Of a stretch of DNA of 64,000 nt, positions 1-64,000 are shown in pieces. The DNA is from Hansfordia pulvinata (taxonomy: Eukaryota; Ascomycota; Sordariomycetes; Xylariales). Under the pieces are notes generated by a model. It saw nothing but the letters and a program-made list of their open reading frames with translations, did not search any database and had not been told where the DNA came from. Positions within the stretch are counted from its first letter, which is position 1; each line of letters opens with the position of its first letter. The position numbers and the translations under genes were made by a program. The DNA lies in the NCBI GenBank assembly GCA_006538405.1, contig BJKQ01000044.1, forward strand, positions 1 through 64,000. Direction: 5' to 3'.

Positions 1-1061
1 CTTCCCCTCCTCCCGCCCTTTTCTTTTCTCCCCCTGCCTCCGCCTTCCCTTCTTTCCTTCCCCCTCCCCCTTTTCCCGTTCTCTCTCTACCCTCCCCCTC
101 CTTTCTCCCCGTGTCGCTTTCCCCCCGCCCCTCTCGTGCTGTCTCGTCCTCTCTCTCTTCCCCTTCGTCCTCTTCCTTTCGTCCTTTTCCTCTTCCTCTT
201 TCTGCCTCCCGCCTGCTTCCGCCTGGGTCCCCCCCCTCCCTCTGCCCTTTCCTCCTCCCCTTGTCTGCCGTCGGCGCGCTCTCGCTTGCCCCGGCGCGTC
301 CCCTTCCCCCCCCCCTCGTCCTGCCCGCTTCCCGCTCCTGTTCTTTCGTTCTCGCCCCGCCCCCCTTTCCGTCTTCTTTCTTGCCCTTGGCTTCCTTGCC
401 CCCCCCCTCCCCGTTTCCTCTCTGCCTCGCCCCTTTGCCGCGTCTTTTTTTTTTTCGTTTCCTTTCTCGGCTGTGTCCGGTGTCCCCGGCCCGGTCCCTC
501 TCGCCCCCCTCGCTCCTCCTCCTTTCGCCTTCTTCCCTCCCCCCCGTTCCCGCTCCCCTCCTGCGCTCGGTCCCTTTTCCTCGGCGCGGGTGGGCTCTCC
601 TTCTTCTGGGCTCTCTTTCGCTGCCTCCCCTCCGCCGCCGTCCTCCCCTTCTCTGTGTGCCTGGCGCGCGGTTCCTTGTCGGGCGCCCGCCCCCCCCCGC
701 GCCCTGCTCTCGGGTTCCGGTCTTCCGCCCGCCGGTGGTCTTTTTTCTGCGCCGCGCCCCGTGCTGTGTCCCCTGCGCTGTGTCCCCTGCCCCTCTCTTT
801 CGTTTCCGCGGGGCGGGCGGTCTCGCTTCGGCCGCCCTCGTCCCGCCGCGCTTGCGGCTCCGGCGGCTCTGCCTCCCGCCTTTCGCCGGTTTCCCCCTCT
901 CTCCCCTCCCGCTTCCTTCCCCTCTTCCTTTCCCCGTCCTCCCGCCCTCGTCTGCCCCGTGTCTGGCTCCCTTGCCTTTCCTTCCTTTCCGTTTTTTTCG
1001 TTCCGTCCCGTCCCTCCTTGCCCCTCTTGGTCCCCCTCTTCTTTCCTCGTTCCTGCGTCGT
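1..1061. other. Upstream spacer, no gene resolved
   Basis: C/T-rich sequence ahead of nad3. From about 560 to 890 it contains GC-rich element fragments of the kind found in all spacers here. In related genomes nad2 precedes nad3, and 900-1060 is T-rich enough to be coding, but I could not read nad2 with confidence. The only A I noticed in the window lies here, at about position 89. Confidence 0.4.
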
Positions 1062-1405
1062 CTGCCTTTTTTCTTTTTCTTTGTCTCTCTCTTCGCTTTC
1101 GTTTTTTTCGTTGTCCCTTTCCTTCTTGCGCCGCCTCCTCCTTCCCCGCCCCTCTTCTCTCTTTGCCTGTGGTTTTCCCCGTTTTTTCGGCCCCCTCGCC
1201 CTCCGTTTGGTGTCCCCTTTTTTCTCTTTGCTTTCGTTTTTTTTCTTCGCTTTCGCCCTTCTTCTCCCTTTCCCTTTTGCCTTCCGTGCCTCTGTTCCTG
1301 CTCTCTCTGGGTTCCGTCTTGCCTTCTTCTTTCTCCTTCTCCTCCCTCTCGGTTTTGTCTTTGCCTTCGGTCCCGTGCTTTCCCCCTCGCTCGTCGCCCC
1401 CTTGT
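1062..1405 (+). CDS. nad3: NADH dehydrogenase subunit 3
   Basis: Membrane subunit of respiratory complex I. Reading C as A or C, the frame from ctg (ATG) at 1062 gives a hydrophobic N-terminus, then the APHNP loop and the signature FECGFHSF (about 1162-1188), followed by FGV, FxFAxVFFLFDLE (about 1205-1260) and a C-terminal GFVFELGK...ALKIASR. Length fits the family (about 115 residues). At least three single bases seem missing: in the C run after GQN, near LFDLE, and after LGK. The start is the ctg nearest the family start; the stop is not resolved, so the end is approximate. It stands alone, about 730 bp before atp9. Confidence 0.82.
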
Positions 1406-2138
1406 GCCTTTCTTTCCTGTCCCTCTTCTCCCGTTCCCGCCTTCTTCGGTCCCCGCCCTTTCCCTTTGGCCGGCGTTCGCCGCCTTCCTCTTGGCTTCCC
1501 CCCCCCGCTTCCCCTGTCCCCTTCCTGTTCGGTGCCCGCTCTTCCCTTCCTCCCTCGTCCTCGCGTTCCTCCCTCTCCCTCCTCCTCCGCTGGTTCGCTT
1601 TTTCTTCTCTTCGCTCTCTTTCTTTTTCCGTCCTCGCTTGCCCCTCCGCTTCCTCCCGCCCCCTTTCGCCCGCCCTCTCGTCCCCTTTTCTGTCCGGTCT
1701 CTTGCTCCCTCCTTCTTTTTGGTCTCCCGCCCCCGCCCCCGCCCCTTTGGTTCCGGTTCCGGTTCCGGTGCCGGTTCCGGCTTCGCCGCTCGCCTCCTGC
1801 TCCTTTGGCTCCCCCGCCCGCTCGCCTCCTGCTCCTTTGGCTCCCCGCCCGCTCTCCCTGCGCTCCGCCCCCCCCCCCCCGTCCCCCCGCCCCCCCCCCC
1901 CGGCGCGCTCCCCTCTTCGCCCTTTCCCCTCCTCCCTGTTCCGGTCCCCTTCCTCGGCGCCTTTTCCGGCGCCCCCCTCCTGTCCGCTCTCGCTCGTGTG
2001 TCGCGTTCTCTCTTCTCTTCCCTTCCTTCGCGCTCCGCTTCCCCGTTTGTCCGCTCCTCCCGTGCTGCCCTTTTGGTCTCTTCCCTGCTTTCGCCCTTCC
2101 CGTTCTGCCCTCTTCCTGCCTCCCGCTGCCCTTTCTCC
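1406..2138. other. nad3-atp9 spacer with GC-rich elements
   Basis: No gene found. Holds a GGTTCC hexamer array (1719-1790), two tandem copies of the block reading gctcctttggctccc (about 1798-1850) and C-run hairpin-like sequence at 1868-1905. Confidence 0.5.
1719..1790 (+). repeat. GGTTCC-array element (family R1), copy 1
   Basis: A C-rich arm with G every six bases (gccccc units), then a short spacer, then about four GGTTCC units with one degenerate GGTGCC, then a GC-rich tail. Confidence 0.75.
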
Positions 2139-2361
2139 CTGCTCCCCGTTGCCCCCCTCCTCGGCCCCGGTTTCGCTCCCCCGGTTTCCTCGGGGCTGGT
2201 GTCGGTCTCGGTGTTGTTTTTGGTGCCTTCCTTTTCGGCGTCGCGCGCCCCCCTCCCTTCCGCGGTCCCTTCTTTTCTTCTGCTCTTTCGGTTTTGCTTT
2301 TTCCGCCGCTCCTGGCTTCTTTGCCTTCCTGCTGGCTTTTTTCCTTTTCTCTGTGGCCTCC
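2139..2361 (+). CDS. atp9: ATP synthase subunit c (ATP9)
   Basis: Forms the proton-carrying c-ring of mitochondrial ATP synthase. The recoded frame starts at ctg (ATG) 2139 with MLQVAKLIGTGLAT, continues GLIGAGVGIGVVFG, then RNPxLRGQLFSYAI, GFAFSEAxGLFALMMAF and ends LILYVA with tcc (TAA) at 2359-2361. The glycine-rich first helix and the conserved Glu in FSEA (the proton-binding acid) are present. Span is 223 nt; 74 residues plus stop need 225, so exactly two bases are missing: one in the C run after GLAT (about 2183) and one T before GF (about 2287). The match to filamentous-ascomycete ATP9 is very close. Without the two bases the frame breaks twice. Confidence 0.93.
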
Positions 2362-4600
2362 TCTGCCTCCCTTCCGTGGTTCTTTCTCTCGTTCGGTCGT
2401 CTCTGCCCCTCGCTTCTCTTTCCCTCCTCGCCGGCTGGCCGCCCTTTCTCTTTTTCGTCTCCTTCCTCCTCCCGGGCGGGCTGGCGCGTTTCCGCCGCCC
2501 TCCTCCCGCCTGTTTCCGGCTGGGTCCCCCGTCGCCCTCTTCGTCGTCTCGGGTGCGGTTTCGTCGGGCGCCCGCTCTCCCGCTCGCCCCTTGCCCTGCT
2601 CCGCCCCCTTCCCTTCTGTTCGCTGTCCCCTCGCCTCGTTGGTGTTTTCGCCGTCTGCTCGTTTTCCGTTCCGTGCTTCTTTCGTCCCCCCTCTCTCTTG
2701 CTCCCTTTCCCTGGCTTCGTTCCTTTCTCCCCTGTGTTTGTTTCTGTTTCTCCTTCTTCGTTTCCGGCTCGCTTCCTGCCTCCCGGGGGGGGCCGTCCCT
2801 CTCTCGGTCGGCGCGCTCTTCCCCTCCCCCGCGCGTCTTGCTTCCTTCTCCCGTCGTGCGTTTCGTCGCCGCCCTCGTTCCCTCCGTCCTCTTTCTCGGG
2901 TCTCTCCTCCTCTCTTTTCGTTCCCTTGCTCCCTCGTTTCTTTTCCGTCCTCTTTTCCCCCTTCCTTTGCCTCTCTTCCCTCGTCCGGGCCCCGCCTTTC
3001 TTTTTCTGCGGCTCCTTTCTTCGGCGGCGTCTCCTCCGGCTCCGCCCGCTCTGCTTGCGGCTCCCGCCCCGCCCCCGCCCCTTGGGTTCCGGTTCCGGTT
3101 CCGGTTCCGGCTCCGCCCCCCTCGCCTGCTGCTCCTTTGGCTCCCCGCTTCCTTTCTGTGTCCCCTGCGCGGGTGGGCGGGTCCCCTCCCGCGTCTGCGC
3201 GTTTCCCCTCGCCGCCCTCCCTCCCCCCCCTTCCCCTTCTCCCCGCCCGGTCGCGGGCCGGCCCCGCCCCTCTCGTTCGCGTCTCGCGCGCTGCGCCGCT
3301 TTCCCTTTTCGTCTTCTGTTTCCCCTTGTTTTCCCCCTTTCCTTTCCTTCTTTGGCGGCTTCCCCCGCTCTCCTTTCCTTTTTGCTGCCCCTCCTCCTTG
3401 CGGTCTCTCCTTCCCCGCTCGTGCTCCCCTCCCTGGCCGGTTTCGTCGCCTTCCCTGCTCCTCTCCTGTCTTCTTTCGTTGTTCTTTTCTTCGCCGTTGC
3501 CTGCCTCCTGCTTTCCCTGCTCCGCCCTTCTCTTTCCCCTCCCTCGCCCCTTTCTCCCCCTCTTTCCCTCCCGGTCCCTTGTGCCTCCTCCCCGTGTTTT
3601 CCGTTTCCTCCTCTGCCTTTTCTCCCGTTCTCTCGTCCCTCTTCTGCCGTTCGTGTTCCGTTCTCCGCCGCTGCTTTTTCTCTGCGCCCTTCCTTCTCCC
3701 GGCTCCTCCCCTCCCTCCGGTCTTTCTCGCTGGCGCCCTCCCCTTCCCCCTGCTCTCTCTCTTGGCCCCTCTGTCGCTTTGGCTCCCCGCTTTCTTCGCT
3801 CTTTTCCTCTTCGTTCTTTCCCCCCTCGCGCCCCTCTTGTTCTCCGTCGCGCCTTCCTCCCCTCCGGCTCTTCTCCTTTTTCCTTCGCTCTCCTCGCCTC
3901 TTGTGCTCTCGCTCCTTTCCCCGCCCGCGCCCCTCTTCTCTGGCTCCCTTCCCTCCTCGCTCTCCTCCTTTCCCCTCGCTGGTCGTTCTTCCGGTCCTCC
4001 CTTTCTGCCGCCCCTCCCTCCCCCTTCGTCCCGCTTTCCCCGGTGTTTCTGTCCCCGCCCTTCCCCTCTCTTTGGTCGTCCTCCCCCTGCCGCCCTCCCG
4101 CCCTTCTGTCTTTCCCTCGCTCTCCGCTTCCTTTCGGTCCCTTCCTCCTGCCGCCCCCCGCGTTCCTGCCGCCCCGCTTTCGGCCGCCCCTCCTGCCGCC
4201 CTTTCTTCCCCTGCGTGCTCTTCGCGGTTCTCCTGTCCCCTTTCCGCCCCCTGTGCTTCCGCCGCCTTTCCCTTCCTCGGGCGTTTTCTTTCCCTCCGCC
4301 GCGCTGCTCCTTTTTCGCTCTTCGCCGTCCTCGTCTCCGCCTTTGTCTCCCTTCTGGCCCCCTTTCTCCCGCTCGGTCTCCCTTCCCCGGCGGCTCTTCC
4401 TCCCTTCCCCTTCCCTTCCCCCCCTCTGCGTCCCCTTTCCCTGTCTGCTGGCCCCTCCTCCCGCCTTTCGGTCCTCTCCCTCCTTCCTCCCCTTTCTCCG
4501 TGCTCCCCTCCCGGCTGTCCCCTGGCTTCTCCGCCGGCCCCCCCGTCTGGCCTCGCCGTCCTTCCGTCGGTTCCTCCGCGCCTCCCCGTGGCCCCTTCTC
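2362..4600. other. atp9-cox2 spacer
   Basis: Contains an R1 array (3062-3125), GC-rich blocks at 2460-2580 and 3160-3300, and C-rich sequence from 3300 to 4600 that may be an intron or an A-rich reading frame in the 5' part of cox2. I could not find the cox2 N-terminus (the FQDSATP region) here. Confidence 0.4.
3062..3125 (+). repeat. GGTTCC-array element (R1), copy 2
   Basis: Arm of gccccc units, then four GGTTCC units and the shared tail beginning ggctccg. Confidence 0.8.
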
Positions 4601-4627
4601 TCCGGTCCGCTCTCGTCCCGTTCCGTC

Positions 4628-5161
4628 TGCCCGTCCTTCTGTGTTGCCCTTCCTTGCCTTCCTCTGCCCCTCCCCCGGCTGTCCTCTTCCTCTTCCTCGC
4701 TTTCCCTTCTTTTCCCTTCTTCTCCCTCCTGGCTGCCGTTCCCGCTTCTTCCCTGTCTGTTTTCGCTGCGGGCCCCCCTGCTCCTGCCGTTCCCCTCTCC
4801 TGCTTTCTTCCCTCGTGCTGCTGCCTTCCTCGCCTTTGCTTCTTCTTTCGTCCCCGCCTCTGCCTTCGCCGCTGGGGCTTTCCGCCTGTTCGCCGTCGCT
4901 CCTCGCGTTCTTGTTCCTGCCTTCCCTCCTGTTCGCTTCCTCCTCCCTCTGGTGCTGTTCTCCCTTCCTTTTCTTGTCCTGCCTTCGGTCTCCCGTGTGC
5001 TGCCTCCCCCGGTCGCTTGCCTCCCGTTTCTGTTTTTGTTCCTCGCGCCGGGGTTTTTTCCGGTCCCTGTTCCGCCCTCTGTGGGCTTTTCCCCGTTCCC
5101 TGCCTCTCGTGCTCGCCTCCGTTTCTTTGGCCCCGTTTTTGCCCTGCCTGGCCGCCCCTCC
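4628..5161 (+). CDS. cox2: Cytochrome c oxidase subunit 2 (5' end not found)
   Basis: Carries the dinuclear CuA centre of complex IV. Recoded reading gives LIELIWTITPAVILIL, AFPSFKLLY, MDEV, then HQWYWSY, FIEFDSY, VPESDLEDGALRMLEVDNR, HVRFI, SGDVIHSFSCPALGIKCD, SPGRLNQVSVFVNREG, VFYGQCSEICGILHSSMP and IVIESVSLEKF, ending in tcc (TAA) at 5159-5161. CuA ligands are visible: His of GDVIHSF, Cys-x-E-x-Cys of GQCSEIC, His and Met of HSSMP. Trp in HQWYW is written tgc, i.e. TGA. At least six single bases are missing, nearly all inside C runs (for example near 4644, 4772, 4790, 4946 and 5157). The N-terminal third is unresolved and may lie beyond an intron. Confidence 0.9.
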
Positions 5162-7383
5162 TCGCTTGTCCTCCGGCCTTCCCCTGCTTCTCCCTCCCTT
5201 TCGCCGCCTGCCGTTGCGTCTTCCTCCTCCCTCCCCTCTCTCTTTCCCCTCCCCTGCGTCCTGGGCCTCCTCCCTGCCTTTTTCCTCCTCTTCGCCCCCT
5301 GCGGTTCCGCCTTCGTCGCCCCCGGTTCTCTCTCTCGTTTCGCCTCCCTCGGCCTCGGTTTCGTTTTCGCCCCCCCCCCTCTTTCTCTCTTCCTCCTCCT
5401 CCTGCCTTTCCTCTTCGTGTTCTTTGTGTTCGTTCTCTGTTTCTTCTTGTTCTTCCGGTTCCTCCGCCCTTCCGTCCCGTCTTTGCGTCGCTCTTCCCCT
5501 CCGCCGCTTCTCCCTCCCTTTCTCCTCTCGTGTTGCTCTCTCTCCCGCTTGTCTCCCTGGCTTTTTTCCCCGCCCTCTCTTTTTCTCTCTGTCCGCTTCC
5601 TGGGTCTGCGCCTTTCTCCCTTCTGGCTTGCTTTTCTCGTTTCCCTTGGCTTTTCTCTCGCTTCCGCTTTCTCGGTTCTGCCTTCGGCGCCTGCTTGTCT
5701 GCCCCGTCTTCTTCCTCGTGGCTCCCGCCTCTCGTTTCTTGCCTCCGGTCTTCTTCCCGGTTGTCCCCTCTTTCGCTTTCTCCGGTTTCCCTCCCCCCTC
5801 GGGCCTCGCCCTCTTTTCGCTGCCCCTCCTTTGTTTCGCGTCTGCTTCGCCTGCTTTCGCCCTCCCTCTGGCTCTCTCTTTCCTGCTTCTTTTCCCCGTG
5901 CTCTTCCTCCTTTCCCTCGTGCGGGCTCTTCTCCGGCCCCGTCCTCCCCTCTGGCTGTTGTCTCCCCCTCCTTTCTGGCCGCTTCTGGCTCTCCTCCCGC
6001 CGGTCCTCGGTCCCCTGTCCCCCCCCCGCGCCTCCCCTCCTTGCCCTCGCCCTCTCTCCCCTTTCGCTCCTTTTTTCGCTGCGCCTCCCGCTTCCTCTCC
6101 CTTTCGCGTCCGCTTGCTGGCCGGTCCTGCTCGTCCTCCTTCTCCTCGTCGTTTCCTCTCTGCGGTCCGCCTGCCCGGTTTTGTTCCTGCGTGCCCTCCT
6201 GCTGCGCCCGGTCCCCGTCCCTTCGCGGTTCCTTCCGGCGTTGCGGCTTCTCGCGCCGCTCCCCTTCGGCGCGCCTTCGCCTCTCCTTTTTTCGCCGCTT
6301 TCCCGCCTGCTTTTTTTGTCCGGGGTCCTTGTCCTCCCCCTCCTCGTCTCCCGCGCCTCTTTTCCCCGCTCGTCCTTCTCCTGCTTGCTTCCCCCCTTCT
6401 CCCGTCGTCCTCTCCCTCCCGGTCCTCCCTGTTTTCCTTCTGCCCCCTTCCGCTCTTCTTTCGCTCCCTCTTCTCCCCCGGCGGTTCTCCTTTTGCGCCT
6501 CTCCCTCCCGTCCCCTCCCTGGCCGCTCGTGGCTCCCGGGTCCTCCTGGGGGTCGTGGCTCCGGCGGTCCTGGCTCGGGCGGTCCTGGCTCCGGCGGTCG
6601 TGTCCCTGGGGGTCGTTTCCCTCGCGGCCCTTCGCCTCCCGCTCCTTTCTTCCCCCTTCTCGGGTTGCGCCCCGTTTTGCTGTCTGTCTGCTGGCTCCTC
6701 CCCCCGCCCTTTCCCCTCTGTTCTCCCTCCGCCCGGTGCTCCGCCTGCGTGTGCGTCCCGTGTCCCTGCTGTTCCCCGCGCCCCTCCTTCGTCGTTGCTG
6801 CCGCGGTCCGCTCCGCTCGCGCTGCCTCTTTCCGCCCCGCCTTTCGTCCTCCTCTTTTGGCCGCCTTCGCTCCTGCTCTCCTTTCTCCCCCTCGCGGTCC
6901 TCCTCTTCCCCTGCCTGGTTTCGCTGCCGCTGTTCCTGGTTGCCCCGCCTCTTCTTCCCCGCCCCTGTCTCTGGGCCCCCGCGTCTTCTCCTCCTCCTCC
7001 GTCTCGCGCCGCCTTCCGTGCCTCTCGCCGCCCCGGTGCTCCCTTTTTTTTTCCGCTCCTTCTCGCCTCCGTCCTCTTCCGTCGTTTGCTGCTCCTGTTC
7101 CCTCTCCCTCCTTGTGGCGTTCCTCTCCGCGCGGCGGGGCGGGGGCTCTCCTTCTCCCGCCCTCCCTCCCCTCCTCCGCCCGCGCTTGCTTGGTTTGCCG
7201 TCCTTCGCGCCCGCTCGCCTCCGTCCCCGCCCGCCTCCTTCTTCGCTTCCCGCCTCCCTCGCCCTTCGTCTCCTTTGTCCCCCTCTCCTCTGCGCGCTTT
7301 CTGGTGTCCTTTCGGTCGGTCTTCCGCTTTCTCTCTCCTTCTCGCCGCTCCCGGGGGCCGGTGTTGCCCTTTCCCTTCCCTCC
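5162..7383. other. cox2-trnR region with unknown A-rich sequence
   Basis: No known gene recognised. C-rich (A-rich when recoded) sequence at 5900-7200 could be a reading frame of unknown function; it includes a glycine-rich repeat at 6536-6615 (separate entry). GC-rich blocks near 7130-7150 and 7350-7380. Confidence 0.35.
6536..6615 (+). other. Glycine-rich repeat in possible unknown ORF
   Basis: In one frame the sequence repeats GGC-TCx-GGC-GGT-xCT, i.e. Gly-Ser-Gly-Gly-X three times, flanked by GGT-CGT (Gly-Arg or Gly-Ser). The strict three-base periodicity suggests coding rather than hairpin DNA. X and other C-containing codons are ambiguous under recoding (Pro, Thr, Asn or His). A similar Gly-Ser-X-Gly-Gly-X repeat sits at 31203-31258. 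No family recognised. Confidence 0.4.
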
Positions 7384-7454
7384 TTCTCCTTCGCTCCCTG
7401 GTCGCGCCCGCTCCTTCTCCTCTCTGTCTTTTCGTTCGCCTCTCGCCTGCGCCT
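7384..7454 (+). tRNA. trnR: tRNA-Arg(UCU), less likely tRNA-Ile(UAU)
   Basis: Complete cloverleaf when C is read as A or C. Acceptor 7384-7390 pairs fully with 7447-7453; D stem GCTC/GAGC with loop AATGGTA; anticodon stem 7409-7413 / 7421-7425 pairs fully; T stem 7430-7434 / 7442-7446 around loop TTCGAAT. Anticodon is T-C(A)-T in a CTTxTAA loop, so UCU (Arg) or UAU (Ile). Discriminator T, variable loop 4 nt, 71 nt in all. No base is missing. Between cox2 and nad4L. Confidence 0.85.
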
Positions 7455-8200
7455 CCCTCTGTGTTTGTGGGCTTCCCCGTGGCGGGGGGGGGTCCCCCGG
7501 CCCCGGGCGGGGTCCCTTCTTGTGTGCCCCGTGCGCCCGCTCTCCTTTTCTTGCGGTTCCGGGTCCGCCCGCTCTGCTCTCCTGCTCGTCCCCCCCCTCC
7601 GTCCCCTCCGGTCTCTCTCCCTCTTTCTCCCTCCCGGCGTCTTCGCTCCCTTGGTCCCGCGGCCTGCTCCGGCCCTTCCGCTTCTCCGTTCGCGTCTTCT
7701 CTCCTCTTCGCCCCTCTCCCCTGGCCCTCGTCTCTCCTCCTTCGTCTGTCCTTTTCCCCCTTCTTTTTCGGCCTCGTCTCGGTCTCTTCGCGCGCCGGGT
7801 GGTCGGGTCGGGTCCTCTCCCCCCTCCCTCCCGCGCCTTCTCCCTTTTTTTTTTTGTCTTCCCTTCCCGCGCTGTCGCTTGCTTGGGGGGGGGGGGTGCT
7901 GCGCCCGCTCTGCCTCCTTCTTCGCTTCCCGCCTCCCCCGCTTCCCCGTTTGTCCGCTCCTCCCGTGCTGCCCTTTTGGTCTCTTCCCTGGTTTCGGCCT
8001 TCCCGTTCTGCCCTCTTCCCTGGGCGTTCCTCTTCCCCTCCCCTTTCTCCCTGCCTCCTTTTTTTTTTTCCCTTTTTCGCTTTCTTCGGCCTCCCTGTTT
8101 TGGTTTTCCTTTTCCGTCCCTTTTCCTGTGTGGTTTCTTGCTCTCCTGGTTTTTTCTCTTCCGCTTTCTTCCGCTGGCGCTCTCTTCCCTTCGCCCCGCT

Positions 8201-8234
8201 GGGGCGGGGCGGGGGGTCCCCCCCCCCCCCCCGC
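8201..8234. repeat. G-run/T/C-run hairpin
   Basis: Runs of G (interrupted once by C) meet a single T and then at least 15 C. It would form a near-perfect GC stem with almost no loop. Confidence 0.7.
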
Positions 8235-8486
8235 GCCTCCTTCCCGGTGGTTGCGTCCTCTCTTGGTTCTTTTCCCGGCCTTCCGCCCGCTTGTGTTTTC
8301 TCTGGGGGTGGGCCGGTGGCCGGGTCCTTTCTTCGGCCCCTCGTCTCTCTCCCTCCCTCCCTCGCCCTGCGCCCCCTCCCTTTCGGTTCCCTTCTTCGCG
8401 GGCGGGTGGGCGCCCTCTTCCCTCTCCCGCCCTGGCTCCCGCCCGCCTTTCTGCCGGCTTGCTGGGTTTTCTGTGTCCCCCTGTCC

Positions 8487-8522
8487 GCGCGCTCCGCGCT
8501 CCGCGCTCCGCGCTCCGCGCTC
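8487..8522 (+). repeat. Seven-base tandem repeat
   Basis: Five consecutive copies of the unit gctccgc just upstream of nad4L. Confidence 0.85.
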
Positions 8523-8559
8523 CGCCCCCCTGTCCTCCTTCCTCGTCTTCTCTCCGTCC

Positions 8560-8806
8560 CTGCCTTTCCCGTTCCTCCTTTTTTTCCTCGGTCTTTTCGG
8601 TTTTGTCTTCCCTCGCCCCCCCTCCTCTTCCTGCTTCTTTCCCTCGCCCTCCTGCTGTTCGCTCTCCCTTTTTCCTCTTGGTCCGTTCCCTTCCTCTTGC
8701 TGCTCTCTTCGGTCCCCCTCCGCTCTTTCTCTCCTTGCCGTCGCCGGTGCCGCCTCTGCTCTCGGTTTCGGTCTTCTCGTCGCTTTCTCCCGCTTCCCTT
8801 CCTCCT
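8560..8806 (+). CDS. nad4L: NADH dehydrogenase subunit 4L, exon 1
   Basis: Small membrane subunit of complex I. From ctg (ATG) at 8560 the recoded frame reads MNLxLILFFIGLFGFVLNRK, then IILMLLSIEIMLLA, FFLLVRS, DD, GQT and AxAGAESAIGFGLLVAF to about 8806. The SIEIMLLA and AGAESAIGL signatures are diagnostic. One base is missing near GQTY (about 8722). The frame stops making sense after AFYR; the expected C-terminal residues appear 620 bp downstream, next to nad5, so an intron is inferred. nad4L followed directly by nad5 is the usual fungal arrangement. Confidence 0.88.
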
Positions 8807-9427
8807 TTCCCTTCTCTCCTTCTTCCGCGTCCCGCCCCCTCGCCCGCTCCCTTCTTCTGTGCCGCGGTCTTCCGCGCTTGCTCGGGCGCGCGGGTGGCGG
8901 GCTTCTCTGTGCGGCGCGGGTGGGGGGGTCCCCCCCCCTCCGCTCTCCTGCTCCCCCTTTCCCCCTTCCGCCTTCTCGCCGCCGTCGTCCGCGCCGCTCG
9001 CCTCCGTCCCCGCCCGCTCTCCTTCTCCGCTTCGTGTCCCCCCCGCCGCGCGCCTGCGCGCTTGCGCCTCCCGCCCTCCCCCCCTCGCTGGTGTCCCTCT
9101 TCCCCTCGCTCCCCGCTCTCCTTCCTCCGGCCTCCTTTCCCGTTTTGCTCCCCCGCTCCCGTGCCCCTTTCTCTCGTTCTCGTTTTCCCTGTCGCTCCCC
9201 TTTCCCCTTGCGGGCCCGCCTTCCCGCCCCCTCTCCCCCTTCCTCTGGTCCCCTCGTTCCTGGCCTCGGTCCTGCCTCCTGGTCTGGTCCCCCGCTTTGT
9301 CTCTGTCGGGCCTCCGCCGCCCCGCCCCTCTCCCTCCCGGTGTGCCGTTCCTCGCCTCCCCGGCCGTTGGTTTCTTCCCCCTCGGCTTCCGCTCTCGTCC
9401 GTTTCCCCTTCCCGTGTTGGCGTCCCG
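8807..9427 (+). mobile_element. Intron in nad4L (inferred)
   Basis: Separates the AFYR end of exon 1 from the RGSIAIEY end of the gene. It is about 620 bp, contains GC-rich element sequence (8875-9075) and shows no endonuclease motif that I could find. Boundaries are set from protein alignment only. Intron type is not proven. Confidence 0.5.
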
Positions 9428-9457
9428 CCGCGGCCGTCTCGCTCTTGCCTCTCCTCC
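9428..9457 (+). CDS. nad4L: nad4L exon 2 (C-terminal residues)
   Basis: Recoded frame reads RGSIAIEY followed by one short codon and tcc (TAA) at 9455-9457, immediately before the nad5 start. This matches the usual nad4L C-terminus and its abutment with nad5. The exon is only about 30 nt, so the call leans on position. Confidence 0.5.
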
Positions 9458-10160
9458 CTGTCTTTGCGTCTTCTCCTTTTCCCTTTCTTCGGCTCTCTGG
9501 TTTCTGGTTTTTTTGGTCGCCCGTTGGCGTCCCTGGCGCCCCGTTTCTTCCCTCTTTCCGTGTCCTCGTTCCTCCCTTCTTCGCCTCCCTGCTTTCTTTG
9601 CCGTCGGGTTTCCTCCTCTTCCTGTTTCCCTCGCCCTCTTTCGCTGCCTCGCTCGTGCCTGCTTTCCTCTTCCCTGCGGTTTTGCCTTTGCCCGTTTCCC
9701 TGTTGCTCTGTTCCTCCCTGTCTTCCTCCTCCGTTCTTTCGTTCCTCTTTCTTCTCTTCGTTCCCTGCGTCCCGCTCCTCCTGTGCCCCGGTTTTTTCGT
9801 TCTTTCCGTTTCTTCCCTTTTCTGCTGCTTCTCTTCGTCCCTGCCCCTCCTTCCTTCTTCCTGTTTGTCGGTTGCGCCGGTGTCGGCGTTTGTTCTTCCC
9901 TTTTCGTTCGTTTCTGCTTCCTCGCCTTGCTGCTCCCCCGTTCTCTTTCTGCTTTTTTCCCTCCCCGCGTCGGTGCTTGTTTCTTCCCTGTCGGTCTGTT
10001 TGCTCTCTTCTGCTCTTTCGGTCCTTTCCCTTCTGCTCCTGTCTTTTCCTTCGCTCCTTCCCTCCCGCCCCTGTCCTCCCTGTTCTCGGTCTCTGTTTCT
10101 TCCTCGGTGCTCTGGCTCCCCGTTCTCCCGTGGGTCTTCCCCTCTGCTCCCTCTGGCGCT
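9458..10160 (+). CDS. nad5: NADH dehydrogenase subunit 5, exon 1
   Basis: Proton-pumping core subunit of complex I. From ctg (ATG) at 9458, directly after nad4L, the recoded frame reads MYLSILILPLLGSMVSGFFG, then AFFEVGFNNIPVSI, FRWIDSEWFNI, GFxFDSLTV, LIPVLI, LVHIYS, FFSYLSLFTFMM, NNYLLMFVGWEGVGVCSYL, AFLTNRVGDC and GxCLLIGAMAKSSQVGLHIW. Four tryptophans are tgc (TGA). Frame holds for about 85 codons without correction in the middle, but single bases are missing near 9529, 9590, 9920 and 10152, and two near 9945. Ends in T at 10160 within LPMAMEGP. Confidence 0.94.
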
Positions 10161-49539: not shown

Positions 49540-49557
49540 TCCTCTCCTTCTCCCTCC

Positions 49558-52145: not shown

Positions 52146-52214
52146 CTCCCGCTCGTTTCCGTTTCCTCCCTCCCGTTTTCCTCTTTCCCGGTTCCCCTTC
52201 TCCTCTCTCTCGCT

Positions 52215-53250: not shown

Positions 53251-53514
53251 CCGTTCGGCCGTTCTCGGTTCCCTTTCCCCGTCCTCCTTCGTTTTGTCGC
53301 TTCTCTCGTTTTCTTCTCTCTTTTCCCTTCTCCCTCCCCTTTCCCCTCGCCTCCTCGCCCGCTTCGTTGCTCCTCGGCTCGCCGCGCTTGCTGCCCTCCC
53401 TGGGTTCCCCTCCGCTCTCTTCCTTCTCTTCTTTTCGTTTTGTTTTGTCTTTTTCGCTTGTTTCCCTTCTCTCCTTCGTCTGTTTTTTTCCTTTTTGCCT
53501 TTCTTTTTTTCTCT

Positions 53515-54317: not shown

Positions 54318-55399
54318 TCTCCTTGTTCCTCCCCTGTTCTCCCCGCGTCCCTTTTCCGCGTCGCGGCTGTGCGGCGGGCTCCTTCTCCTGGGCTGCGCCC
54401 GCTCCCGCTCCGCCCCTCCCCTTCTCGCCCCTCCTTGCGTCGGCTCCCTTCTTCGGGCGGGCTGCGCCCGCTCCCGCTCCGCCCCCCTCCTGCCTTTCGG
54501 CGCCTCTTTTTCCCGGCGCGCCGCGCTTGCTTGGTTTTGCCTCCTGCTCCTTTGGCTCCCCCGCCCGCCTCCTTCTTCGCTTCCCGCCCCCCCCCTCCTC
54601 CCCCTCGCTTCCCTGTTTCTCCGGTGGCCCCGCTCTCTTCCCGTCTTCCTCGGGCCCGCTTGCTCTGCCGGTCGCCTTTGCGGCGCCGTCCCTCGCTCGC
54701 TCGCGTTTCTTCCCTCTCCTCCTCCTCCTTCTTTCGTTTCCTCGGTCCCCCCTTTTTGCTCGCCCTGTTCTTCCCGTTCCCGTCTTGGCCGCCTTCCCGG
54801 GGGGGGGTGGTTCCCTTCTGCGCGCTTGCGCCTTCCGTCCGCGGCTTTCGCGGCCCCCTCTGCCCTGTTGGTCTTTTTCCCCGCCCGTTCTCCCGCGGCT
54901 CCGCCGTCCTCCCCGGCTCCGCCGTCCTCCCGCCCTTGCCGCGCCTTGCTCGCGTGGTTTCCGCTGGTCCGTTTGCGTTTTCCTTGGCCTTCCGGGTCCC
55001 CTCCGTTCGCCTCGGCTCTTCTCTGTCTTCGTTTGCGTTTCGCTTTCTCCGGCCTGGTGCCGGGTCCCTCTTTCTCTCGGTCGCTTTCTCCTTCTGCGTC
55101 TTTGTTTCTCCTTTTTGTGTGGGGGGGGCGCTCTCCTTCTCGCCCTCCTCCCCCTCCTTCCCTCCTCCCTTTCGCCCGCCCTCTCTCCTCCTTTCGCGCC
55201 CGCTCTTTCTTCTGCGCGCCGGGGCGGGGCGCGGGTCCTCCCTTCCGCTTTCTTTTTCGTCGCCTCTCGCTCTCTCCCCCGGCTCCCCGCCCGCTTTCCT
55301 CCTTCCTCTTTCTTCGGTTCCCCGTCCCCCCTTTTCTCTCCCCTCTTTTCCCCGGCTTCGGGCCGGGTTGGTTCGGCGCCCCTTTTGGGTCGGGGCGCC
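54318..55399. other. cox3-rnl spacer
   Basis: GC-rich elements dominate: 54360-54400, 54425-54600 (includes the cttcttcgggcgggctgcgcc block twice and the gctcctttggctccc block), 54795-54960, 55120-55240, 55360-55400. No gene seen. Confidence 0.5.
54360..54500 (+). repeat. Two tandem copies of the gggctgcgcccgctcccgctccg block
   Basis: The block recurs 80 bp apart here, and again at 32660-32705 and 33500-33550, each followed by a ctcctgcctttcg end. Confidence 0.75.
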
Positions 55400-57949
55400 G
55401 TTCCGTTCGCCTCGTCCTCCTCCGCCCCTCTTTCTTTTTCGCCCTCCCGTGTCCTTGCTCTCGCCCCCGTTCCTCTGGTTTTCTCCTTCTCCCGTTCGCT
55501 CCGCTTGCTGTCCTTCTTCTCTCCTTCTGCCTCCCCCGTCTCCCCGCGCTTCTTCGGGCTCCCTGTCCTTCGCTCTGTCTTCCCGCGTGCCCCCCCTTCT
55601 GTCGCCTCTCGCTGCCCGGCGCGGTTCCCCCTTTCTGTGTCCGGCGGGCGCCCGCTCTGCTCTCCTGCCCGCTCTCGCTTCCCCCTCTTCCTCTCCGCGC
55701 CCTTCCCTCCTCCCCGCCGGCGCCTTGCCCTCTCTTCGTCGCTTCCGGCCCGCCCTCCCCCGCGCTTCTCTCCGTCGTGTGCCTGCCCGTCGCCGCGCCT
55801 CTCTCTTCCTCCGTCCCTCGCCCCCCCTGTTTCCCTCTTCCGGGGCCCCTTCCTCTCCGGCTCCCTCTCCTCCCTCCGCGCCCGCGCCTCGTCCCGTGCG
55901 GGCCCGGGTTGCCCTCGTCGTTTTCTCCGCCGCTCCCGTTCTTTTCCGCGCGCGTCCCTTTTGCCTCCTGGGTCCCCCGTTCCCTTCGCTGCGCGCCCCT
56001 TGCGCCGTTCCCCCTGCTCCCCCCTGCCTTCGTGTCTCCCGTTCGCCCCGCCGCTCGGTGCTCTTCCTCTGGTCCGGCCTCTCCGGTCCGCCCGGGTTCT
56101 TGTTGCCTCCCTCTCCGCCGCCCTCTGGTCCGTTTCGTGCCCGCCCCTCTGCCCTCGCTCGCTGGTTTTCTGCGCCCCTCTCCTCGTCGGCCCTTCCCGT
56201 CCCCTTCTCGCCGGTCCCGCCCTTCCTCTCCGGCCCGCTGTCCTTTCTTTCGGCGGCGTGCTTCTCTGTTGCGGCTTCTCCTCTTCCTCTCCCTTTCCGT
56301 TTGTGCCGCTCGGGGGGTCGTGCCGCCTTTCTCGGTGCGTCTGTCGCCTCGGCCTGGCCTCTCTGGCTCTTGCCTTCTCCGCCCTCGCCTGCTCCGGTTG
56401 TCTGTCCCCGGGCCCCCGCCCGCCCCCGTGTTCCGGTTCCGCCCTTCTTCTTCCGTGCCCTTCCGCCGGTCTTTTCTTCCGTCGCCCCGGCGCTGGGCTT
56501 CGCCGCCGCCCTTCTTTCCCGCTCTCGTCCTCGCGCGCTTGTTCCTCCTCCCTGGCCTCGCCCTTTCGCGGCTCTCCCTCCTCTCCCGCCCCCTTGTCCC
56601 TCCCTTCTCCTGCTCGTTTCTTCCGTCCTTTCCTGGGGTCGCCGCCCTTGCGTCCCCTGCCCCTTCTCTTCCTTTTTCCTCCCTGTGTCCCGTCCGCCGC
56701 GTCCCTCTTTCCTCTCCCGTCCCTCCCGCGCGCCTGGTGCCCTGCGTCCCCCCCGCCGTTTCCGCGCGGGGGCCCGGCCGCGTTTTTGTGTCGGCTCTCT
56801 CGTTCTCCTGTCCGCTCTTGTTTCCCTCCCTCCTTGCCCCCTCGCCTCCCGCTTCTGGTTCCTTTCCCGTCCCCGGCCTCTCCGTTCTCCGTCCTCCCGG
56901 CTGCCGCGCTGCGCCCTCCCCTTCTTCCTTCCCTGCCCCCCTTGCCCCGTGCCCCGTGTGCTGGCCCCTTCCGTCCTCTCTTCCCCCGCTCCCCCCCTCC
57001 CCGCTGCGTTCTTTTTCCTGCCCCCCCGTCCCTCCCCCTGTGCCCCGTCCGCTCGTCGCGTCTCCGCCGGCGTCCCTGCGCTCCCCTCCTCCCGGCCCTC
57101 GGCCCCTGCCTCCCGTCCCTTCGGGCGCCGGCGGGCTCCTTCCTCCGTTCTTGGTTCTTCGCTGCCCTCCTGTTCCTCCGTCCCCCCGCCGGGTCCGCCG
57201 GCCGCCGCCTCCCTCGTGTTGTCCGCCTGTTTCCTTCCCCCCGCCCTTTGCCTCCCGCCTTCCCGTCTCCGTCTCGCGTGTGCTTTCTGCCCGCTCCCGG
57301 CTGGCTCCCGCCCCTCCCTGCCCTTCCTCGGTTGGGTCCTGTCGGCCCCCCGGGCCCTGGCGGCCTTCCCGTGCGGGTCCTCCGGTCGCGGCCTCCCTTG
57401 CCTGTTCCCTGCCGTCTTTGCCTGCCTGCTGTCCCGCTCCCCCCGCTGTCTCTCTGCTTGCCTCCGTGCCCTTGGCCTCCCTGTGCCGCTCCCGTTTCCC
57501 TCTCGTTCGCCGCGCCGCCCTCTGCCGCTTTCCTGTTCCTCCTTCCTCGGTGCGGTTGGGGCCCCTTTTCGTCCCTCCGGTCCTCGCTCCGCTCCCCCTG
57601 TCCTCCCTTTCTTTGGGGCTCGTCCTGTGTCGGTTCTCTTCCCCTTCTTTCTTCGCCTCTCCCGCTTCTTTGCCGGTCCCTTCGCCCGGCCCCTCGCTCG
57701 GCGCCCGTTTCTGCGGGGCCCCGCCCCCCCCGCGTCCCTGGGCGTGTCCCCTTCTGTTCTCTCTTTGTTCCCGCGTGCGCTTCCCTTTCCTCTCCCTGGT
57801 TCCGTTTTCCGTTTCTCTTGCGCTTCCTCCCCGCCGTCTCCCTCTCTCCCTTTTGTTTTGGTCTTTCCGCCTTCCCCCGCCCTTTCTTCTCCTGGCCTCT
57901 CCCTTCTCCCGGTTCCTCCGCTCTCTTGCTCCTGGCTCGGTCCCTTTGC

Positions 57950-60900
57950 CCGCCTTCCCGGCGTCGTCTCGGCCCCCGGTTTCCCGGGTCGTTCCTTCTT
58001 GTTTGTTTGTCCTCGTCGGTCGCGCTGCTCTCTTCTCTCTTCTCTCTGTCTCGCGGTCCCCGCCTCGCTCCGGCCCTTGTTCCGTGTCTCCTTTTGCTCT
58101 TTGCTTTTTTTGTCGTTTCTCCCTTTTCTGGGCTTTCTCCTTTCCTCTCCCGGCGCCCGCCTCTCGCTTGCTCTGCCGCCCGCGGGTGCCGTCCGTTTCC
58201 TTTGCCGTCTCCCGTTTGCTCTCGCTCTCCTTTCGCTCGGTTTCCCTCTCCCCCCCTTTCTGCGGCGCCCTTTCTCCCTTCGGTCCGCTTTTTCCTCTCG
58301 CGCCCTTCGTTGTCCTTCCCCGTTCCGCCGGGTCCTCCTTTCTCCTCCTTTCTTCTCTGTCGCTGTTCTCTGTTTTCTTTTCCGTCCCTCTCTCGTGTCT
58401 CTCCTCCCCTCCCCCGTTCTGGTTCTGTCTCTTCCTTCCCCCGTTTCCTGGCTCCCTCTTGCCTTCCTGTTTGCCCCCCCCCGTCTTCCCGTCGCGTCCG
58501 CGGGCCTCGGCTCCCCCGCCCCTTCCGGCCCGGTCTTGGCTTCTTGGCCCCGCTCCGCTCGGGCTGTTTGTCCTTCCTCTTTCCCTCCCTCTCTCCCCCT
58601 CCCGTCGTCCTTTTCCCTCCTTCGCTTCCTCCCTTTCCTGCGCGGCCCCTTCCCCCTCCCGCTCCTTGCTTGGTCTTTTTTGCGGCTCCCCTTCCTGTTT
58701 CCCCCGGGTGGGGGGGGCCCCCCCCCTTCCGCTCTTTTTTTCGGTCTCTTCTGCCTTTCCCTCTCCGCTCCCGTCGCTTCTCTTTCTTTTCGTCTTTCCC
58801 TCCTTGCGCCTCCTCCGGTTCCCTTTCCCCGCTTCCTTTCTTTTTGCGCTCCCCTCCGCTGCTCTCCTTCCGGGTCCGTCTCCCCGGCCCGCCTCGCTTC
58901 GCGCTCCGCCCCGCTCCGTCCCTTTGCCGCGCCCTTTTTCGGCGTGCCCTCCCTCGCGGGCCTGTTTGTGTGCGGTTTCGCTTCCGGTCGGCGCGCCGCG
59001 CTTTTTCGGGTGCGGTCCCCCGTGCGGCCTCCTGCTCCTTTGGCTGGGTCCCCCCGCCCCCTCTCCTTCTCCTGTGTGGCGTTCCTCGGCGCTTCCGCCC
59101 GCTCTGCTCTCCTCCGGCGCGCTTGCCCCCCCCCCCCCCCGGCCGCTCCCGCTCTCCTGCCCGCTCCCTCCCTCCCCCTTCCGGGCCTCGTTTTGTTTTT
59201 GCGCTGCCCCCTCGTTCCCCGCCTCTTCGGCTGCGCCCGCTCCGCCCTCCCCCCTTCCTTTTTTTTTTGCGCTGGGTGCTGCGGTTTTGCGGCCCCCGCT
59301 CTCCGCGTCCCCCTCTCCCCGCTCCTCTCTCTCTCCCGCCCTTTTCTCCCCCTTCCTCCTCCCCTCTGCCCCCTCCGCCCCTTCCCCTTTCCCTCGCGTT
59401 CGCCCCTTCGGCGCCCGCTCTGCTCCTCCTCTCCCTTCTCCTTCTCTTTTTTCCTCTGCTCGCGGCGGGCGTCCCTCGCCCCTTCTTTCCTTCCGGCCGG
59501 TCCTCCTGCCGCTGTGCCCTTCCCTCCTTTTCCCGTCCTCCCCCCTCGTCGGTGCCCCCGTTCTTTTCCCGCTGTCTCGCCCGCCTGGCCCCCTTCCGTC
59601 TCTCCTTCTCCTTCTCCTCCTCCCCCCCTTCCCCGGCCTCTCCTTTCCCTCTCCCTCCTTTCCTCCCCGGCTCTTTTCCTCTGTCTTTTCCCCTCCCTTT
59701 CTGTCGGCCGGGTGGGGTCCTTCTCCCCGTCCCCCCTCCCTTGCTTTCTCGTCCCCCCGCCTCCTGTCTTTCCCTCCGCTTTTCGTCCGTCCCGCCGCCG
59801 TCCCCCCCCCTTCTCCGCTCTCTCCCTTTTTGTTTCTCCTCGCGCCCCTGGTCTTCGCCCCCCTTCCGTCGTTTCCTCCCTCTTTTTCCTCCCTTCGTTT
59901 TCTTTTTCCTGCCCTTTCCTTTGGCTGCCCGGTTTCGCGTTCGCTTGGGCCCTCGTTTGCCGGGTGCCGTCGGCTCCCCTTCCGTGTTTGCCTCTGTCCC
60001 CGCCCGCTCTCCCCCTCTCCCGCCTCCGTTCCTCGTCTCTTTCTGCCTCCTTTTTTGCCTCCCTCTTTCGCCCTTTCTTTGCCTTCCCCCTTTCCCCCTC
60101 TCCCTCGCTGTCTGCTGCTTTCCTCGGCGCCGGCGGCCGCGCTTGCGCCGCCCCCCCGCCCGCTCTGCTTTCCCGCTTCCTGGGGTTTCCGGCGCCCGCT
60201 CCTGTCCCCTCCCTCCGGCTCCGCGCTTGCGGCTTCCCTTTCCCTCTTCCTTCTCTCCCTTCGTCTCTTCTTCCCCCTCTTCGCCGCTTCCCCTTCCCCT
60301 TCCTTTCCCTCCTTCCCCCTGGCCCCCCTTTTTCTCTCCCTTCGGTCCTTCTCTTCGTCCCTCTTCTGGTCCCGCCGTCGCCTTTCCTCTCGTTCCTTTC
60401 CCCTCTCTCCCCCTCCTTCCGCTCTCTTTCCTCCCCTTTTCCCTTCCCCCTGCCGCCGCCCCCGCCGTCCCTTGCCTTCCTGCCTCTTTTCTTCCGTCCC
60501 TTTCCCTTCCCCGCTGCCCCCCCTTCCGCTCGCTCTCCCGTTCTTCCCTTCGTCGCTCCTCGTTTCGTTGCCCCTCCCTTTCCCCTCTTCCCTCCGTTCC
60601 CTCCTTCGTCCTCCTCTGGGTGTTTCCGGTGCGCGCTCTTCTCCTTTGGCTCCGCCGCCTTCCCCTCGTTCTTTCCCTGCCTTCTTCCTGCCTCTCCCTC
60701 CGCCTCCTCCCTGTCTCCTGCTTCCCGTGCTTCCGCCCTTTCCCTGTCGCCCCCTTCTCTTGCCTCCCTCCCGTCTCCCGCTCCCCGCGGTGTTCGCCTT
60801 CGCGTCCCCGGTCGCTTCCCTCCCCGTTCTCCCGCCGCTCGCGCTCCCTCCCCCTTTCCCTGCCCGGCGGCTTGCCCCTTTCGCTTCCGCTTTTCCCGGC

Positions 60901-61250
60901 TTCTCTTCTGTCGTTTCTCGCGGTCCTTTCGCTTCCCCTGTCGCCCCCTCTCTGCTCGCCCGTCCCCGCCGCCTTGGCTCTTTCGCTGTGTCCGGTTGCC
61001 TCGCTCCTCCGTCCTCCCTCTTCGTCTTGCGCCTTCCTCTCCCTCCCCTTCGTCCCGGGCCGGTCTCTCCCCCCCTTCCCTTCCCTTCCCTTCCTCTTCC
61101 CCTTCCCGCCCGGCGCGTTTCCCCCCGGCGCGTTTCCCCCCGCGTTTCCCCCGGCCCTCCCGCCCGCCGCTCTCCTGGCGGGCTCGTTGCCCTCTCTCTC
61201 TCGCCCCCCCCGCCGCCTCGTCTGCCCCCTTTTGTCCCCGTGGCCCTTCC
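57950..61250 (+). mobile_element. Intron region in rnl (inferred)
   Basis: Extra sequence inside the peptidyl-transferase domain of rnl. In Pezizomycotina a group I intron here usually carries rps3. C-rich, T-poor stretches at 59320-59700 and 60240-60900 would be A-rich when recoded and could encode rps3, but I could not confirm any RPS3 motif. GC-rich elements at 58690-58730, 58970-59150, 60120-60230 and 61070-61150. Exact borders unknown. Confidence 0.5.
58706..58727. repeat. G-run/C-run hairpin without central T
   Basis: gggtggggggg followed directly by nine C. Same context as the other hairpins (followed by ttccgctc). Confidence 0.6.
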
Positions 61251-61700
61251 TTTCCCGCTCCCCTGTTGCCCCGGCTCCTTTGCGCCCGCGTGTGCCCCCT
61301 GCGTGCGCGGTTTGGCCCCTCGCTGTCGGCTTCCCTTCTCCTCCTGGCTGCCGCCCCTCTGTCGGGTCCGCCTGTTCGTCGCTTCCCCCGTTCCTGCGCT
61401 GGGTTCCCTCCGTCGTGCGCCCGTCTGGTTTCTCTCTTCTCGCGGCCCTTCGCCTCTCCTCCGGCCTCCCTCTGTCCGCCCGGCCCTTGGCCTCTTCCTC
61501 TCCTTCCTCTTGCCCTCCCCCCTTGCTCCTCTCTGGTTTCCCTGTTGTTTCTCTGTCTTCGTCCCCTTCTTTCTTCCGCCTCTCCTCCTTTCCCTTGCGT
61601 CGTTCTGCTCGTCTCGGCCCGGCCGGGCCGCTCTGTTCGTCCGCGCTCCGTGCTGCCCGCCTCTCGGCCGCCGCTCCCCTTCCGCTCTTTCTTCCCTCTC

Positions 61701-63130
61701 CGTCCTCGCTCCTTCCCCCTTCCGGGGCGGGTTTTTCCTTCGCTCTTTCCTCTTCCCGCCTCTCGGCTTCCTCTGTCCTCCTCTCGCGCTTTTCCGGCCG
61801 TCCGTCCTCCTTCGCTCCTCCCTGCTCTTCTTTTCTCTCTCTTTCCCCTTTCTCCCCCTCGCTTTCCTTTCGGGCTCCTTCGCGCTCTCTTTGCGGTCGT
61901 TTTTTTTTTTCTGCGTCCGTTCCCGTTTCCGGGGCCTTTTTGGCGCGGCGGTGCCTCCTTCTCGGGCGTTTTCTCCTCTGGCTCCGCCCGCTCTCGCTCT
62001 CCTGCCCGCTCGTCCTGCTGGGCTTTTTTCGTGGCTGCTGCTTCCCTCCTTTCTTCCGTTCGTTCTCCCCTTTTCCTTCCTCTCCTCTCCGCTCCTCCCT
62101 TTCTGTCGTTCCCCGCTTCTCGTTCTCCGTTTGCCCCTTCCGCCTCGCCTGCTTCGCCTCCCCGCCCTGCCCTTGTTTTGTCCTCCTCGCCGGCCGTGCG
62201 CTCCTGCCCTTGGGCTCCCTCTTTCTCGTTCTCGTTTGCTTGGTGTGTCGGCCTTTCTTCTCCGCTTCCGCCCCCTTGCTCCTTTCCTTCTTCTGTGCGC
62301 GCGCGGTTGTTTGTCGGGCTCTCCTTCTTCTGTCGCGGGTGTGCGTCTCCCGCCCCCGCCCGCCCCCGCCCTTGGGTTCCGGTCCCGGTTCCGGTCCGGT
62401 CCCGGTGCCGGTTCCGGCTCCGCCCGCCGCGCTTGCGGCTCCGGCGGCTCCGCCTCCTTGTGTCGGCTCCCTTCTTCGGGCGCTTGCTGCTCCGGCGGCT
62501 CCCCCCCTCCTGCCTTTCGCCTCCCTCCCGTGTCCCGCCCTCTCGCCCCTGGCTGCGCGTTTCCCCCCCCCGCCCTCCCCCCCCTCCCTTCGCCCTCTCG
62601 GGTCTTTTCTCGCTCCGCCCGCTCTCGCTCTCGTGCCGGCTTCTTTCGCCCGCTTCCCTCCTTTTTCCGTTCCCCCTTCCTCCTTTCGTCTTTCCTTCCC
62701 CCTTCTCGGCTTCGTCGTCCCGCGGTCCGCCGTGCCCCTTTCCCCGTCCTTCTCCCCGGGTTCGCCTCCCGTCTCGTCTCTTCGCTGCGGCTTCGTGTCC
62801 TCGTTCCCCTCTTTGGCTCCTGCCCCGCTGCTGCCGGTGCCCTTCCTTTGTCCGCTTCTCCCTCCCCCCCCCCGCGCTTGCCTGTTTCCCTTCCCCTTCG
62901 TGCGTGCTGGCCGCGGGGCGGGCTTTTTTTTTGTGCTGTGTTTTCTCTCCCTGTGTGTGGGGCTCTCCTTCTCTGGGCTCTCCTTCTTCTGGGCGGCGCT
63001 TGCGCCTCCGCCTTCCGCCTCCGCCCCTCTCCTTCGGTTCCGTCTCCCTCCTTCTTTCCGCTTGCCCGGTCGGTCTCCCCCCTGCTCTCCTTCCTCCCTT
63101 TGCGGTGCTCTTCTTTCTTCCTTTTCCTCC
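61701..63130. other. rnl-trnM spacer
   Basis: R1 array at 62345-62450 with further GC-rich blocks to 62590, at 62870-62930 and 62955-63010. A cluster of tRNAs is usual after rnl; I recovered only trnM. Confidence 0.45.
62345..62450 (+). repeat. GGTTCC-array element (R1)
   Basis: gcccccgcccgcccccgccc arm, ttggg, GGTTCC/GGTCCC/GGTGCC units, tail ggctccgcccgccgcgcttgcgg. The array is more diverged than the others. Confidence 0.8.
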
Positions 63131-63201
63131 GCGGCTCTCGCTTCCTTGGTCCGCGTCCTGCTCCTCCGGTCCTTCTCCGTGTTCCCGTCCTTTTGGCCTT
63201 C
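63131..63201 (+). tRNA. trnM: tRNA-Met(CAU), two bases short
   Basis: Acceptor 63131-63137 pairs with 63194-63200 (two G-T pairs); D stem GCTT/AAGC with loop AATTGGT; T stem 63177-63181 / 63189-63193 around TTCAAGT. The anticodon region reads cctg-ctcct-cc-ggt; restoring two bases to the C run gives a paired stem and loop CTCATAA, anticodon CAU. Without them the stem fails. This is the same C-run shortening seen in the protein genes. Confidence 0.65.
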
Positions 63202-64000
63202 CCCCCTCCCCTTTTTTTTTTCTCCTTTCCTTCGTCCCTTGTCGCTTTTCTCCTCGTCGGCCGCTCTTCCCGTTTGCTTTCTCTTTTGTGCCTCCTTCCC
63301 TTTCCCTTGCTGTTCTTCCTCTCTCTCTGGTTTTGGCCGTCCGCTTCCTTCCCGCGGGTCCGGGCCGGGGCCGGCTCCTTGCCTGTTTCCCCTTCTCGGG
63401 GCCGGCGCGCTTGCGGCGGCTCCCTCTCGCTTGCTGTGCCTCCGTCGGTTCTGTTTCTTCCGGGGGTCCCCCCCTCGCCCCCCCCCCCGTTTTGTCTCCT
63501 TCTCGGTCTCCTGCGCTGTCCTCTGCTCTCCCCGTCTCCCGTCGCGTTCGCGTCCTCGCCTCCTTCGCCCCCCCCCTCCGCGTGCTGGCCTCGGTCGCCC
63601 GTGCCCCCTTCCGCTTTGTTGCTGCCTCTCGTGGCCGTTCCCGTCGTCCCTCGGCTCTCTTTCCCTTTTTCTCCTCTCCCGGTCCCTTCCGCTCCCTTTC
63701 TGTTCCGCTCCCCTCGGCTCTCGGTGGCTGCCCCCCCGCTCTTTCTCCTTTTTTTTTCCGTCGGGCGCGCTTGCCTGCGCGCGGCGGCGGGGGGGGGGTC
63801 CCCCCCCCTCCGCGCCTCCCCTCCCTCCTCCGGTTTCTCTTTCCCGTCCGCCCCGTTTCCCTCGCGCGCGCCCCCCTTCGCCGCCCTCCCCCTTTTCCCG
63901 TCTTCCTCGGTGGCGCTTCTCGGCGTCTCTCTTCCCCGCGTTCCGTCCTTTCGCGTTTCCCGGCGTCCGTTTCTCTCTTTCTCGGGGCCCTGGTTTCCTC
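63202..64000. other. 3' end of window, GC-rich elements
   Basis: No gene seen. GC blocks at 63355-63480 and 63760-63815. The last 180 bases show nothing recognisable. Confidence 0.45.
63788..63808. repeat. G-run/T/C-run hairpin
   Basis: Ten G, T, eight C then tccgcgcc, preceded by gcgcttgcctgcgcg as at other copies. Confidence 0.7.

Follow-up and report, generated by a model that had tools for sequence, protein, structure and literature searches.

Assemblies built from single-molecule long reads carry artefacts such as shortened homopolymers and inverted contigs that arise from missed adapters, and to our knowledge the wholesale loss of one base from such contigs has not been described; those parts of the literature that came up in our search likewise contained no account of contigs lacking adenine. 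The assembly of Hansfordia pulvinata (NCBI GenBank GCA_006538405.1; 63 contigs, 46,805,188 bases) shares the first two features and differs in showing the third. Bases 1 to 64,000 of its contig BJKQ01000044.1 (C44, 64,463 bases), hereafter the window, consist of 30,187 C, 21,810 T, 12,002 G and only one A. We conclude that this window is almost certainly an ordinary fungal mitochondrial genome (mitogenome) whose A's had nearly all been turned into C by the time of assembly, an artefact that most likely arose when some of the long reads were base-called. With respect to gene content, the closest described mitogenomes are those of Sordariomycetes, for example Pestalotiopsis fici, which is known here through its cox3 protein alone and which, at 83% identity in cox3, represents a different species.

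The preliminary description of the window, made from its letters alone, had held that reading every C as 'A or C' restores a fungal mitogenome and that the simplest explanation was an A-to-C substitution in the data rather than biology. A four-letter counterpart within the same assembly, the 99,430-base contig C37, demonstrates this directly, as C37 is a normal mitogenome containing all four bases and the rule holds against it base by base. One kilobase of the unconverted window, used as DNA query, matched C37 at 69%. The suggestion to convert known mitogenomes from A to C and to align the window to them was followed with C37 of the same isolate in place of a known species, which is the stronger test and gave approximately 98% identity. 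The parts of C37 compared were 1–48,584, 66,001–67,500 and 89,431–99,430. Its first 48,584 bases are involved in two main colinear blocks (Table 1), in which C37 and C44 have the same gene order and sequence after conversion; the second block continues past the window, C44 position 64,463 corresponding to C37 position 21,497. The two contigs differ in that C44 is without A, without the 4.2 kb of C37 at 21,498–25,697 and without 852 further bases. In terms of coverage, 22,469, 20,610 and 1,475 of the 64,000 bases of the window were compared with C37, and positions 23,938–36,381 with a further contig described below (C63). The distance between two direct copies of rns in C37 suggests a circle of about 69,854 bases.

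The match is specific to the replacement of A by C. When A was merged into C in C37 1–45,000, 40,809 bases aligned to C44 at 98.0%, as compared to 25,181 bases at 71.3% for the unconverted sequence. Of the 12 possible single-letter merges, A to G and A to T yielded about 71%, i.e., no gain over the raw sequence, and the remaining nine gave no alignment of at least 300 bases. As a control, thirteen 10-kb stretches from elsewhere in the assembly were compared in the same way, and none of them gave an A-to-C match of at least 95%. At the level of single positions, the 14,072 A's of C37 appeared in C44 as 13,501 C, 4 T, 1 G and 1 A, with 565 missing. For the other three bases, 6,889 of 7,129 C's remained C (239 missing, 1 T), 14,809 of 14,837 T's remained T (26 missing, 2 C), and 8,322 of 8,346 G's remained G, 22 being missing and one each having become C and T. 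Altogether, 852 of 44,384 aligned bases were deleted in C44, accompanied by 10 inserted bases and 10 other substitutions.

The conversion is strand-specific, and each strand is present as its own contig lacking A. Contigs C56 (19,347 bases) and C63 (12,423 bases) are likewise without A and correspond to the opposite strand of two stretches of the window. After A-to-C conversion, the minus strand of C37 was 97.5% identical to C56 over 19,820 columns, and the spectrum of changes was that of C44, since 6,178 of 6,496 A's were read as C and none as A. C63 agreed with the minus strand of C44 23,938–36,381 at 96.5% when both were reduced to two letters, compared to about 72% in wrong registers. Moreover, the two opposite three-letter strands jointly determine the four-letter sequence: the letter in C44 together with the letter of the reversed C56 named the base of C37 at 18,907 of 18,918 shared positions, with the pair C,A standing for A (5,990 positions), C,C for C (3,088), G,G for G (3,631) and T,G for T (6,198). 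The sequence merged in this manner from C44 and C56 was 99.4% identical to C37 over 19,809 columns (45 mismatches and 80 gap positions).

At least one sample was taken from each of the 63 contigs of the assembly, for 47 contigs no more than 300 bases, and five (C44, C55, C56, C58 and C63; at most 130,314 bases if their full lengths are summed) were A-less where sampled. The two contigs not yet mentioned are probably nuclear ribosomal DNA (rDNA), with the 28S gene in sense orientation in C55 and in antisense orientation in C58. For this labeling we used two putative 28S motifs: a 300-base sample of C58 contained the first, antisense and converted from A to C, at 72 of 72 bases, and a 300-base sample of C55 contained the second, in sense orientation and with one base missing. 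The best of 200 shuffles reached 49 of 144 score units for the C58 motif and 35 of 62 for the C55 motif. The sampled motif regions recurred within their own contigs, after 8,512 bases in C58 and after 8,459 bases in C55, and a recurrence at about 8.5 kb is what a tandem rDNA unit would show. In fungal cells it is the mitochondrial and the ribosomal DNA that occur in high copy number, which agrees with A-less reads having been a small fraction of the total.

The timing of the error is revealed by the lengths of runs. Mixed runs of A and C of 5–9 bases were shortened in 329 of 489 cases, as opposed to 2 of 643 mixed runs of G and T. Even strictly alternating runs of A and C of 4–6 bases were shortened (17 of 74), in contrast to none of 76 alternating G/T runs. 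A run of the ACAC type is no homopolymer in real DNA and was nevertheless handled as one, showing that A and C had been confounded before the consensus was made. Other two-letter classes were intermediate, for example mixed A/T runs of nine bases (20 of 117) and A/G runs of eight (12 of 60), as expected because such runs contain runs of A or C.

These observations bear differently on the alternatives to a base-calling error. It might be proposed that the instrument was sound and that part of the read files was corrupted, A being replaced by C in the text before assembly. This would account for the assembly of each strand by itself as well as for the shortening of mixed A/C runs, and we consider it unlikely, though it deserves more credit than any other alternative. 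Under such corruption, pure runs of A should have been called as well as pure runs of T, yet among runs of five bases 30 of 56 A runs were shortened as compared to 1 of 101 T runs, a contrast to be read with the caveat that a strand asymmetry of the platform is possible. As this contrast is not given by a mere change of text in the reads, a poorer signal for A and C is inferred. Far less probable is a change made after assembly, with A replaced by C in the text of five finished records. Contigs lacking A in either orientation and a near-complete conversion would be expected from edited contigs as well, so that it is the shortening of runs which decides: mixed and alternating A/C runs were shortened like homopolymers and G/T runs were not. 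Furthermore, one A survives, and the five affected contigs are not a chance selection from the 63, being redundant copies of mitochondrial and probably of ribosomal DNA. Chemistry or biology, in the form of real A-less DNA, deaminated or edited A, or a converted library, has a negligible probability, and no point in support of it was found. Both strands lack A in their own direction, hence the duplex would have no T, yet T makes up 34% of the window; moreover, the assembly also contains the normal sequence, and while deaminated A reads as G, there was one G at the 14,072 A positions. Lastly, the idea that chance or low-complexity sequence was over-read in the preliminary description, favored by the ease with which degenerate letters give false readings and by the absence of Rfam and ARAGORN hits in the unconverted window, is as good as impossible in view of the 98% identity with C37 over 44 kb after conversion and of the clean control stretches.

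Following this, we return to base calling as the preferred explanation and propose that some of the long single-molecule reads had all their A's called as C, which is seen through the contigs and would apply to the reads behind them. The error would follow the reading direction, so that reads of the two strands would overlap neither each other nor normal reads and would be assembled apart; the contigs show this separation, with C44 from the plus strand and C56 and C63 from the opposite strand. Presumably A-less reads were numerous enough to form contigs only for high-copy DNA, namely that of the mitochondrion and, as it appears, the rDNA. Runs composed of A and C were seen as C homopolymers and shortened, as is evident in the contigs. 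The most likely cause would be a confusion of A and C pulses within the instrument, which may have been a single-molecule optical sequencer; the A and C dyes of PacBio are spectral neighbours or have the same colour, making confusion possible. Several points weigh against this explanation. The base-calling step was deduced from contigs alone, and the shortening of pure A and C runs could in part be due to the platform or the consensus software performing worse on one strand. Some shortening was also seen for G and T, namely in 2 of 16 pure G runs of five in C44 and in 2 of 18 pure T runs of six in C56. The probable involvement of rDNA is based on two putative 28S motifs and two 300-base samples, and the 300-base queries from C55 and C58 matched no four-letter 28S copy in the assembly. 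Relative to the preliminary description, the conversion per strand before consensus, the presence of both strands as contigs, the probable involvement of rDNA and the shortening of A/C runs are new.

With the four-letter sequence at hand, the gene content could be read (Table 1). In the unconverted window, neither Rfam at the gathering threshold nor ARAGORN found an RNA family or a transfer RNA (tRNA). In C37, Pfam identified nad6, cox3, nad2, nad3, cox2, nad4L, nad5, cob, cox1 and an rps3/VAR1-like open reading frame (ORF), atp9 was recognised by eye, and the RNA genes comprised rns, rnl, a group I intron and 22 tRNAs (ARAGORN, six stretches). As in the mitogenomes of Sordariomycetes mentioned above, the genes (cox, cob, nad and rps3-like as well as rns, rnl and tRNA) lie on one strand. 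The 4.2-kb gap deprives C44 of most of nad2. Of the twelve protein genes named earlier, ten were found (cox1–3, cob, nad1, nad3, nad4L, nad5, nad6 and atp9); the examined stretches showed neither atp6 nor nad4, positions 22,470–23,937, 36,382–39,602 and 41,078–43,390 (about 7 kb in total) having no four-letter reading. Rfam matched rns and rnl, for which landmarks had been reported previously, at the aligned places of C37, and the seven tRNAs reported previously are exceeded by 17 that lie entirely within the window, of which ARAGORN identified 16 and Rfam alone the remaining one. The claim that codon phase is kept fails over whole genes, given the 852 missing bases, for example seven in cox3; since bases are missing within genes, the earlier readings are valid only locally. 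The rps3/VAR1-like ORF, of the type coding for a mitochondrial ribosomal protein, sits in a long stretch past the matched part of rnl. Given that the rnl match ends at model position 2044 of 2925, an intron may contain this ORF.

Table 1. Coordinates of features in the 64,000-base window of C44, with the corresponding contigs and the supporting evidence.
Feature	Position	Strand	Evidence or remark
A-to-C version of C37 25,698–48,584	1..22469	+	98.1% identical after conversion
A-to-C version of C37 1–~21,020	43391..64000	+	97.9% identical after conversion
A-to-C version of C37 66,001–67,500	39603..41077	+	98.3% (1,500-base C37 stretch)
Opposite strand present as A-less C56	45119..64000	+	C56, 19,347 bases
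Opposite strand present as A-less C63	23938..36381	+	two-letter (A,C / G,T) agreement, 12,197/12,638 columns
Sole A of the window	89..89	+	likewise A in C37 (25,789); 89 bases from contig end
nad3 ORF	1050..1460	+	PF00507
cox2, split: COX2_TM with GIY-YIG intron ORF, then periplasmic domain	3016..5158	+	Pfam
nad4L	8546..8823	+	PF00420
nad5, two ORFs (9455–10167, 10894–12138)	9455..12138	+	PF00361, PF00662, PF06455
cob, two ORFs with GIY-YIG intron ORF between	15049..17655	+	Pfam
cox1, first part, running into weak LAGLIDADG match	21773..22467	+	PF00115
cox1, further exons	24342..25989	+	Pfam on merged reading of C44 and C63
nad1 piece	34909..35376	+	PF00146 on merged reading of C44 and C63
rns	46225..47879	+	RF00177, 546.8 bits in C37
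trnY, no deletion	48677..48762	+	read through C37
trnN, no deletion	49469..49539	+	read through C37
nad6 ORF, 12 bases deleted	52189..53007	+	PF00499
cox3 ORF (804 bases in C37), 7 bases deleted	53518..54314	+	PF00510
rnl, matched part (model positions 15–2044 of 2925)	55546..57474	+	RF02541, 589.7 bits in C37
rps3/VAR1-like ORF, 46 bases deleted	59363..61011	+	PF05316

Among the matches listed for cox3, the nearest named sequence was that of Pestalotiopsis fici, a member of the Pezizomycotina, followed by Xylaria hypoxylon; a metagenome protein without a name was 100% identical. The window thus carries a fungal mitochondrial gene set whose nearest named cox3 relatives are found in Pezizomycotina.

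The assembly carries the mitogenome redundantly, further four-letter matches being found in C51, C54 and C62. In C54 (approximately 12,082–16,975), a palindrome about position 14,528.5 has rns on both strands in a symmetric arrangement, and the end of C37 (89,431–99,430) repeats, in inverted orientation, the stretch at about 13–23 kb of this contig. These inverted contigs fit missed adapters on the PacBio platform. Short repeats occur around the mitogenome in both orientations (in the window at about 35,540–36,150 and 45,100–45,900, among others). In C10, at about 103,647–103,760, two short nuclear stretches (83 and 34 bases) resemble mitochondrial rns, and by this resemblance they are possibly a nuclear insertion of mitochondrial DNA.

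With regard to other datasets, patterns of the 16S 530 loop converted from A to C or from T to G gave 0 matches each, a search made with exact patterns in contigs of prokaryote genomes only and therefore no bar to cases elsewhere; a four-letter 28S motif gave 0 matches in viral contigs. Whether a little-described sequencing failure of wider relevance is at hand, with an all-or-none loss of one base per read that leads to strand-resolved three-letter contigs, complementary in information and in errors and jointly restoring the four letters, appears to us an evenly balanced question; such contigs may lie unnoticed in other public assemblies, where they would lack stop codons and give giant false proteins. 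Ordinary annotation with Rfam and ARAGORN finds nothing in the window as deposited, and as stop codons require an A, the forward frames would stay open and giant false proteins would result. A simple screen is to list those contigs in which A (or T) is nearly absent. Taken together, the A-less window means nothing for the biology of the fungus, and it is useful as a quality-control warning for assemblies.

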